A stretch of DNA of 41,012 bases, from NCBI GenBank assembly GCA_015296025.1, contig DVDZ01000043.1, positions 1 to 41,012 of the forward strand. Direction: 5' to 3'. Shown piece by piece: positions 5,627 through 36,687 of this stretch (positions within the stretch are counted from its first letter, which is position 1; every line of letters begins with the position of its first letter). Position numbers and translations under genes: made by a program. The notes beneath the pieces are model-generated. The model was not told where the DNA came from. It made no database searches and saw nothing but the letters and a program-made list of their open reading frames with translations. This stretch comes from Thermosynechococcus sp. M46_R2017_013. GTDB taxonomy: Bacteria; Cyanobacteriota; Cyanobacteriia; Thermosynechococcales; Thermosynechococcaceae.

Positions 5627-5640
5627 GTAGCCTCCGATAC
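5627..5640 (+). promoter_or_regulatory. NtcA-binding site of the glnA promoter
   Basis: GTAGCCTCCGATAC matches the NtcA consensus GTA-N8-TAC exactly. TACCAT at 5664-5669 fits the TAN3T -10 element, 23 bases downstream, which is the canonical spacing of NtcA-activated class II promoters. The expected transcript start is near 5676, about 40 bases before the ATG. NtcA with 2-oxoglutarate activates glnA under nitrogen limitation in cyanobacteria. Confidence 0.88.
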
Positions 5641-5663
5641 AAAAACTAATTAAAGCAACTTTC

Positions 5664-5669
5664 TACCAT
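5664..5669 (+). promoter_or_regulatory. -10 element of the NtcA-dependent glnA promoter
   Basis: TACCAT matches TAN3T and lies 23 bases after the TAC half of the NtcA box. No good -35 hexamer is seen, as expected for a class II NtcA promoter where the regulator replaces it. Confidence 0.7.
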
Positions 5670-5715
5670 AGAGTGTCGCTGCGGTGCGCCCAATACAGTA
5701 AGGAGTAATCTATAC

Positions 5716-7130
5716 ATGGCAACGCCCCAAGAAATCTTGGATTTGATCCACAGCAAGTACGAGCTAATCGACTTGAAATTTACTGACATGCCCGGTACGT
5801 GGCAACACCTGACAGTGCACAAGAGTCAAATTGACGAGCATTCATTTACCGAGGGTGTGCCTTTTGATGGCTCTAGTATTCGTGGTTGGAAAGCCATCAA
5901 CGAGTCTGATATGGTAATGGTGCCGGATCCAAATACGGCGTGGGAAGATCCCTTCATGAAAGAACCCACCCTGAGCATGATTTGCACCATCAAAGATCCG
6001 CGCACCGGAGAACTCTATGATCGCTGCCCGCGCTCCATTGCTATCCGTGCCGTTGAGTATCTAAAGGCAACAGGCATTGGCGATACAGCTTACTTTGGTC
6101 CTGAAGCCGAATTCTTTATCTTTGATGACGTTCGCTACGATCAAAATCAAAAATCGGGCTACTACTACATTGACAGCATTGAGGGAAGTTGGAATACTGG
6201 CCGCGAAGAAGAAGGGGGTAACCTCGGCTACAAAATCCGTGGTAAGGAGGGCTATTTCCCCGTCGCTCCCACCGACACCCTCCAAGACTTGCGCACAGAA
6301 ATGCTTTTAACCATGGCCAAGTGCGGTGTACCGATTGAAAAACATCACCACGAAGTGGCCACGGCCGGTCAGTGTGAATTGGGCTTTCGCTTTGGCACAC
6401 TCATTCAAGCGGCTGACTGGCTGATGACCTATAAATACTGCGTCAAGAATGTTGCCCGCAAGCACGGCAAAGTAGCCACCTTTATGCCCAAGCCCGTCTT
6501 CAACGATAACGGTTCGGGAATGCACACGCACCAATCCATTTGGAAAGATGGTCAACCACTCTTTTGGGGAGATGGCTACGCCAATTTGAGTCAAATTGCT
6601 CTCTGGTACATTGGTGGTATCCTCAAGCATGCTCCAGCGCTGCTAGCTTTTACTAACCCAACAACCAACTCCTATAAACGACTGGTTCCTGGCTTTGAAG
6701 CTCCCGTGAACCTTGCCTATTCCCAAGCAACCGCTCTGCCTCTGTGCGGATTCCCCTCACGGGCGAAAATCCAAAAGCCAAACGCCTAGAGTTCCGTTGC
6801 CCCGATGCGACCAGTAATCCCTACCTTGCTTTTGCGGCAATGCTGTGTGCTGGTATCGATGGCATCAAGAATCAAATTGATCCGGGTAGCCCCCTAGATG
6901 TTGATATCTACGATCTCAGCCCTGAGGAACTGGCGAAGATTCCTTCGACCCCCGGTTCACTGATGGCGGCTTTGGAAAACCTGCAAAAGGATCATAGCTT
7001 CCTGACAGCGACAGGGGTGTTTAGTGAAGACTTTATCCTCAACTGGATTCAGTACAAGCTGGATACGGAAGTGATTCCCATGTCGCTGCGTCCTCATCCC
7101 TATGAATTCACCCTTTACTTTGATGCCTAG
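5716..7130 (+). CDS. glnA: Type I glutamine synthetase GlnA (1-base frameshift in this sequence)
   Basis: Glutamine synthetase type I condenses glutamate and ammonia with ATP and is the entry point of nitrogen assimilation. Two ORFs in different frames together encode one complete enzyme: 5716-6726 gives residues 1-337 and the rest runs to 7130. Motifs present are [18 protein letters not shown] and [13 protein letters not shown] in the first part, and [21 protein letters not shown] and [18 protein letters not shown] in the second. The break is at 6726/6727, where CAAGCAACCGC should read CAAGGCAACCGC. Adding one G restores [11 protein letters not shown] and a 471-aa protein of normal length. 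Everything else, including promoter and terminator, is intact. A sequencing or assembly error is more likely than a real null mutation in a gene this important. Confidence 0.95.
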
Positions 7131-7173: not shown

Positions 7174-7209
7174 AGAGGCACTCATCAAGGGTTGCCTCTT
7201 TTATTTTTT
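7174..7209 (+). terminator. Rho-independent terminator of glnA
   Basis: AGAGGCA at 7174-7180 and TGCCTCT at 7193-7199 form a 7-bp stem with a 12-base loop, directly followed by a T-rich run (TTTTATTTTTT). It lies about 45 bases after the glnA stop and isolates glnA from ychF. Confidence 0.85.
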
Positions 7210-34552: not shown

Positions 34553-35457
34553 ATGATTCAAGGAGTTCCGCCAACTACAGACGCGCCTTCTAGAGCGTTG
34601 GGACGGAAGAGAAACGTTTATTCCTGAGTTGCTCCTGATGGCAGTGAGCGCGATATTGTGGTGGTGCTTTCCCTGAGTTTTCCCCAACCAGAACTGGCCA
34701 AGATTACAGGCGATACCCACTCTGAGGAGCGGCAACGTTATACGCTGATCCAGTTGCGGAATCACTGCACTCGCATGATCTATGTGACATCGCAGCCGCT
34801 GCACCCCAGTATTATTGATTACGACTTGGATTTAGCGATCGCCCAGCGTCCAAGGCTGTATTCCCCCCAAAGGCAGTGTTGAAATCATCTCGACCCATGA
34901 GCAGTTAGTGAATGCCCCCAGCGGTCAAATTTTCATTGGCTGTGAATTCCCTGCCCATGCCGACTATCGCCAACAACTCCAAAAACTCAGGCAAACGGTA
35001 GGGACGTATTTAGCCTAGCAGGGAGTGATCGGCTATTTTAATGTGGATGTTGTTGCAACCCAGACAGCTCAGGGGTGGGAACTTTAGGCCATTGAAATAA
35101 ACCTGCGCAAGGGCGGCACTACCCACCCCTTCATGGCCTTACAATTCCTCACCGATGGCCACTATGAGCTAGCGTCTGGCCTGTTTTACAGCAAGCATCG
35201 CCGTCCCAAGTATTACATTGCCTCTGATAACCTCTGCCAGCCCCATTATTGGGGTCTATTGCCCAATGATTTTTGGATATGATTGCCCGCTATCATCTCC
35301 ACTTTGACTCCAGTACAGCAACGGGCACTGTCTTTCACCTCATGGGAGCGCTCTCAGCGTTTGGTAAGCTGGGACTCCTCAGGCTTGGAATACCCCCGAA
35401 GAAGCTCAAGCCATTGACAACCAAACCATCGGCGTTCTCGATGCTGCGGCACTATAG
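34553..35457 (+). pseudogene. Decayed PGM1-type peptide ligase (ATP-grasp carboxylate-amine ligase)
   Basis: Successive fragments in changing frames reassemble into a known family pattern: EFRQLQTRLLERW, IVVVLSLSFPQPELAKITG, then HCTRMIYVTSQPLHPSIIDY, then a jump to IPPKGSVEIISTHEQL, GVIGYFNVDVVATQT, the ATP-grasp metal loop EINLRKGGTTHPFMALQFLT, DMIARYHLHFDSSTATGTVF, and TPEEAQAIDNQTIGVLDAAAL. Lesions include frame changes near the start, near 34635, near 34860, near 35268 and near 35385, and in-frame TAG stops at 35016-35018 and 35085-35087. The central third, with most of the ATP-binding domain, is deleted between IIDY and IPPKG. This is clear long-term decay. It lies directly after egtB on the same strand. 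Confidence 0.75.
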
Positions 35458-35514: not shown

Positions 35515-35662
35515 GCAACGTTCACTGTGAAGAGCAGCCTGTAGGGAAAATCCAGTGCAAGTCTGGTGCTGTGCCGCAGCTGTGATGGGAAGTCTCCCTC
35601 AGCCAGAATGCCTACTTGCTGTGGTTCACTCTATTTGCCTGCGTCGCACGGGCATGGAGTTT
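35515..35662 (+). ncRNA. Cobalamin (AdoCbl) riboswitch
   Basis: The conserved B12-box core is present: GTAGGGAAAATCCAGTGCAA, GTCTGG, then GTGCCGCAGCTGTGATGGGA, then CAGCCAGAATGCCTAC. GTAGG pairs with CCTAC to close the core, and the TCCAG/CTGGT hairpin matches P3. Downstream, GCC TGCG TC GCA C GGGC forms a hairpin just before the cbiX start, suited to translational control through the loop-loop contact. Outer limits are approximate; the core is 35541-35616. It should repress cbiX when adenosylcobalamin is abundant. Confidence 0.88.
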
Positions 35663-35667
35663 CTAAG

Positions 35668-36687
35668 GTGCTGGTTACGCTTAACGATTCAATTCTCAAT
35701 TCCTTCGGTTTTAGTCTGGACTTACCCCCCCTCCCTCAGTCTCGACCTCTTTTACTGGTTGGTCATGGAACCCGCGATCCTGAAGGTCGCCAAGCATTTT
35801 TGGACTTTGCCCAAGCCTACTATCAACTAGATCCCTGTCGGCCTGTTTTTCCCTGTTTTCTGGAGTTAACTGAACCCTCCATTGTTGAAGTTCTCAGTCA
35901 GTGCGTTGCCACAGGCCATACGGATTTATCGGTGCTGCCGATTTTGCTCTTTGCCGCTCGCCACAATAAGTTTGATGTCACGAATGAATTGGATCGGGCA
36001 CGGCGTGCTTTTCCTGAGTTGCGCTATCACTATGGCCGTCACTATGGCATTGCCCCAGAAATTCTAACGCTGTGGCGATCGCGCCTTGAACTCTTGGACA
36101 CTCCGGAATTTAACCCCCAAGCCATTGGCCGCGAAGAAACAGTTCTCCTAGTCGTGGGACGCGGTTCCAGTGATCCCGATGCCAATGGCGATGTCTTTAA
36201 GCTCGCCCGCATGCTCTGGGAAGGCAGTGGCTACAAAACGGTTGAGGTGTGCTTTATCGGCATTACCCATCCCCGCCTACCTGAAGGGTTTGTACGTGCC
36301 AATCTTCACCAGCCTCGTCGTGTCATCGTCCTGCCCCACTTCATGTTTACAGGGGCGCTGGTCAAAAGAATTTACACCCTGACTACAAAAGCGCAAGCAG
36401 CCTATCCCCATGTTGAATACGTGAACTTACCGGAAATTGGCTTGCATCCACAACTGTTTTACCTAACACGACAGCGGGAAATTGAAACCCATGTCGGGCA
36501 GGTAGTGATGAACTGTGAGACCTGTAAATTTCGCTTGGTGGCAGGCCAGACTCATCACCACCACCATCATCACTATGAGCACCACTCCCATAGTCATAAT
36601 CACGAGGATCACCCTCATCACCATGGATCAACGGTAAATTTGGATCATTTGCCCAGTTATCACCAACGCATTTGGCAGGTGCCCTAG
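35668..36687 (+). CDS. cbiX: Sirohydrochlorin cobaltochelatase CbiX with His-rich tail
   Basis: Class II chelatase inserting cobalt into sirohydrochlorin for B12 synthesis. The 339-aa long form contains two CbiX/SirB-like halves: [20 protein letters not shown] near residue 30 with [14 protein letters not shown], and [19 protein letters not shown] near 165 with [18 protein letters not shown] metal-storing tail, [20 protein letters not shown], lies near residue 290, followed by a short acidic/aromatic end. A Cys pair (NCETCKF) precedes the tail and could bind metal or an Fe-S cluster. GTG at 35668 is preferred because the ORF-track start lies inside the riboswitch. Regulation by the upstream cobalamin riboswitch supports the cobalt assignment. 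Confidence 0.92.

Follow-up and report, generated by a model that had tools for sequence, protein, structure and literature searches.

In cyanobacteria, glnA is dispensable where a second glutamine synthetase such as glnN is available: in Synechocystis the presence of glnN allows the loss of glnA, and the double mutant was reported not to be viable (review PMC6316151). Gene-fragmenting indels, including deletions in short runs, are a documented type of long-read assembly error (PMC12007338). Here we describe a type I glutamine synthetase gene (glnA) that is broken into two frames in the assembled sequence of a draft Thermosynechococcus genome (2.40 Mb, 215 contigs, 92.8% complete, 2.4% contaminated), which was compared with ten other genomes of the genus. 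The window is the whole stretch of DNA that was analysed and comprises 41,012 nucleotides, i.e. one entire contig (C141) of the draft. The split is almost certainly not a real feature of the organism's biology and very probably reflects a one-base indel error in the draft, with the organism's own gene intact.

Structure of the split glnA

The gene is located on the plus strand at positions 5716–7130. In it, a GG pair at 6726/6727 is short of one G (the two placements are equivalent), which splits the frame after residue 337, so that the assembled sequence has no uninterrupted frame of about 470 codons. The first frame extends from the ATG at 5716 to 6789 and consists of 337 native and 20 aberrant codons, and the second contains the C-terminal 133 codons at 6729–7127, with a stop codon that ends at 7130. 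At the lesion site (6724–6734) the draft reads CAAGCAACCGC, with the codons TCC CAA GCA ACC GCT, whereas all ten congeners have a CAAGGCAACCGC-type sequence and read TCC CA[A/G] GG[C/T] AAC CGC. The absent base belongs to the GG of CAAGGCAAC, as identified by alignment to the ten congeners and to cyanobacterial glnA sequences covering the site; the extra base is likewise present in the other cyanobacterial glnA genes that aligned over this site (blastn of the 70-base site against fetched loci). Jointly the two frames match the GlnA profile TIGR00653 over its length, at consecutive profile positions and with scores of 483 bits for the N-terminal and 167 bits for the C-terminal part, but neither frame does so alone. 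The C-terminal half also matches a solved structure, PDB 3ng0, from end to end.

The preliminary description had attributed the split to a single absent G at the Q-G-N-R-S codons, and both the list of frames and the alignment bear this out, as the extra G is found at that point in ten of ten congeners. The 471 residues that it gave for the intact protein equal the length of the glnA product in congeners. It had also regarded the gene as otherwise free of lesions and its promoter, ribosome-binding site and terminator as intact, and this holds as well: alignment to congeners revealed one coding indel of a length other than a multiple of three in glnA and no second one, and all three signals are present by sequence (Table 1). 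A GAGGCA/TGCCTC hairpin is common to five of the seven congeners with an examined terminator region; G010 has a different hairpin, and no hairpin of this pattern was found in the terminator region of G006.

Table 1 Coordinates of the glnA features in the window and of one-base indels in four further genes of the draft
Feature	Position	Strand	Basis
NtcA-activated-type promoter, GTA-N8-TAC-N23-TACCAT	5627–5669	+	Motif match, window and 10/10 congeners
Ribosome-binding site, AAGGAG	5700–5705	+	Sequence
glnA, first 337 codons	5716–6726	+	NCBIfam TIGR00653, profile positions 11–331
Absent-G site, CAAGCAACCGC, most likely a sequence error	6724–6734	+	Alignment to congeners and other cyanobacteria
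Out-of-frame tail, 20 codons and TAG stop (6787–6789)	6727–6789	+	Reading frames
glnA, C-terminal 133 codons and stop, shifted frame	6729–7130	+	TIGR00653, profile positions 333–462; PDB 3ng0, E 1e-74
Terminator-like hairpin AGAGGCA/TGCCTCT, then T-rich	7174–7199 (arms 7174–7180, 7193–7199)	+	Sequence
tyrS one-base indel	L166 (contig C101) 4146		Congeners compared whole
ppc one-base indel	L168 (C121) 8629		Congeners compared whole
lptB one-base indel	L158 (C21) 5730		Congeners compared whole
mutL one-base indel	L211 (C204 4000–7000) 1534		Congeners compared whole

The lesion in glnA is the only isolated indel of this kind in the coding sequence of the window. Two indels at 2374 and 9580 that are shared by relatives turned out to be intergenic on checking and were dismissed as gene lesions. 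Further downstream, an ATP-grasp-type ligase gene (34560–35454, plus strand) is a multiply broken pseudogene with about 600 bp deleted, whereas the congener genes are intact and encode about 509 aa. It has a weak match to NF042917 (BesA) and is presumably related to PGM1-type peptide ligases. A cobalamin riboswitch (35522–35633, plus strand; Rfam RF00174, 34.6 bits) is situated upstream of a gene at about 35668–36687, which we take to encode a CbiX-type chelatase.

Frameshifts in the draft assembly

Twenty evenly numbered contigs of the draft were taken, of which 14 were located in the complete congeners G005 and G001 by short tags, and an event was called where the draft match of a conserved congener protein (G005 and G001 regions) switches frame. 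Across the 131 kb of coding sequence that this covered, with the window counted in, 20 frame-change sites were identified. After hand curation, which set aside the decayed gene and indels of more than two bases, about 16 small, isolated frameshifts remained in genes that congeners have intact, or about 12 per 100 kb. Some of these events (contigs C41 and C81, and the C-terminus of a TrkA-like gene) could reflect real divergence. Provided that the sample is representative, the draft would have about 250 such indels in its coding sequence. Comparable genomes had fewer isolated indels of this sort: the same method yielded three sites in 133 kb for G005 genes on G001, none in 137 kb for G001 genes on G005, and two in 78 kb for the drafts G007 and G009. 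The difference between the draft and the complete congeners has a binomial p of about 6e-6, which is indicative only, since the list was hand-curated on one side.

About half of the draft events lie in homopolymers of at least five bases, and runs of nine identical bases number about five in 215 kb of the draft versus none in 516 kb of congeners. The lesions in glnA, tyrS and lptB are located at two-base runs. Indels of either sort have been described in error-prone assemblies (PMC12007338). In tyrS and lptB a C was lost directly at the HIP1 palindrome GCGATCGC, which has a frequency of one per 762 nt; these two cases are too few to claim that deletions favour HIP1 sites, but could hint at motif-linked read errors.

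The genes split in the draft, as named by NCBIfam, include ppc (phosphoenolpyruvate carboxylase) and those for LptB, MenD, CobB, an LL-diaminopimelate aminotransferase-type enzyme, a histidine kinase and a TrkA-like protein. The sole copy of the tyrosyl-tRNA synthetase gene tyrS is split as well. Both tyrS and ppc occur as one intact copy in each of the other genus genomes searched and are split in this genome alone. The mutL gene, which was looked at separately, is split by the loss of one G of four and is whole in the other genus genomes searched. To our knowledge, no cell survives without tyrosyl-tRNA synthetase, and the draft must therefore contain some false indels. The error rate is moderate, as the long genes rpoB, rpoC2 and mutS1 are whole in the draft. 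In the single-contig congener G002, mutS1 is in two frames (G002:C1:1625139–1627582).

Because the same draft splits other indispensable genes, the glnA split can almost certainly be put down to an error of sequencing or assembly. The preliminary description had considered an assembly error likelier than a real mutation, a judgement that the draft-wide isolated frameshifts, including those in the sole tyrS and the sole ppc, support.

Glutamine synthetase copies and selection on glnA

As had been suggested as a check on the lesion, a further glnA or a glnN was sought with PF00120, which matched just the two glnA pieces in the draft assembly. A single glutamine synthetase gene is likewise present in seven of the ten congeners, and 8 of the 11 genus genomes including this one show no second. 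The second gene of the other three is a type III glutamate–ammonia ligase (TIGR03105, a family assignment made on the G010 copy); it is whole in G009 and G010 and frame-broken in the complete genome G001 (L217 245–1203).

Relative to the nearest relative, G007 (94% DNA identity), dN/dS is 0.051 before the lesion (52.5 synonymous and 11.5 non-synonymous changes) and 0.042 after it (21.5 and 3.5, respectively). The corresponding values relative to G005 are 0.030 and 0.028. Neither relaxed selection nor additional lesions were found in glnA compared to G007, and gradual pseudogene decay is ruled out by the selection values together with the lesion count. Had the lesion existed for more than a small part of the G007 divergence, amino-acid changes would have accumulated, and thus the lesion, if real, is recent.

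Origin of the lesion

A sequence error is supported by the excess of lesions over congeners, by the indispensable genes that are hit and by the share of homopolymers among the events. Further support comes from the unrelaxed selection, the intact promoter, ribosome-binding site and terminator, and the lack of an alternative synthetase in the assembly. The glnA lesion fits the pattern of the other draft indels. The living organism would then have an intact 471-codon glnA, and the absent G would be one of the estimated 250 or so indel errors in a fragmented draft, probably caused by homopolymer-type read errors or a low-coverage consensus. Against an error speaks that a GG pair, and not a long homopolymer, is affected, and that the long genes rpoB, rpoC2 and mutS1 are intact; the split mutL, if real, would also raise the true indel rate. 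On statistical grounds, this particular G is most likely absent by error and not as a minority real difference.

It is very improbable that this is a free-living cyanobacterium whose sole glutamine synthetase gene is truly broken, either as a recent mutator with a defective mutL or as a lineage that depends on glutamine. Under such an explanation the mutation would be real and very recent and would have arisen in a mutator, or a minority cell variant was caught by the consensus, and the cells would have used external glutamine or belonged to a dying clone; a mutL-defective mutator is the leading biological alternative, but we give it a very small chance. The one-base deletion that splits mutL in the draft and the many indels in homopolymers are what loss of mutL would lead one to expect. 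However, the lesion would need to be recent, with a dN/dS of 0.042 after it, mutS1 is intact, and the lesions in glnA, tyrS and lptB are at two-base runs, whereas loss of mismatch repair favours long runs. Moreover, the sole tyrS and the sole ppc are split too, and as a cell with a broken tyrS would not be viable, a mutator lineage cannot explain the broken tyrS, despite the small opening that the split mutL provides.

Even less credible is a real loss of glnA that is compensated by a synthetase encoded in sequence that the assembly lacks, either glnN or the TIGR03105-type enzyme of three congeners. The draft is 92.8% complete, two congeners have an intact second gene and a third a broken one, and glnA mutants of other cyanobacteria live if glnN is present (PMC6316151). 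Yet the assembly has no second PF00120 gene, most genomes of the genus show none, and many other lesions of the draft would stay unexplained. Just as far-fetched is a real split frame, read by programmed −1 ribosomal frameshifting or made as separate, assembling halves: both halves are conserved and the fold of the 81 nt downstream is slightly stronger than that of shuffles (z −1.84), but 9 of 200 shuffles fold equally well, the frame is uninterrupted at the site in every relative, inspection of 6715–6735 (TCC CAA GCA) revealed no in-phase X-XXY-YYZ slippery heptamer and inspection upstream of the GTG at 6744 no ribosome site, and programmed frameshifting was therefore rejected.

Were the lesion real, this would be a cyanobacterium without its sole known route of glutamine synthesis, which would be remarkable. 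With a sequence error as the preferred explanation, and isolated coding frameshifts at a density of roughly one in 8 kb, split or absent genes in this draft should not be taken as biology without reads.

Comparison with known systems

Both halves of the draft gene match cyanobacterial GlnA (TIGR00653) consecutively, at profile positions 11–331 and 333–462, and DNA identity to glnA of the ten congeners is 82–94% over the whole gene. The closest solved structure, PDB 3ng0, is, we assume, the glutamine synthetase of Synechocystis PCC 6803. The draft gene differs from cyanobacterial GlnA in the one base that is absent at the Q-G-N-R-S codons, so that the protein is in no single frame. It shares with the true pseudogene in the window, the ATP-grasp-like gene, a frame that is broken relative to congeners; however, the latter combines several frameshifts with at least one in-frame stop and the deletion of about 600 bp, whereas glnA has one lesion and undiminished constraint. 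Unlike the homopolymer errors of error-prone assemblies, the glnA lesion is in a two-base run, but it resembles the indel-fragmented genes of such assemblies, in which isolated one-base indels, enriched in homopolymers, affect conserved and indispensable genes (PMC12007338).
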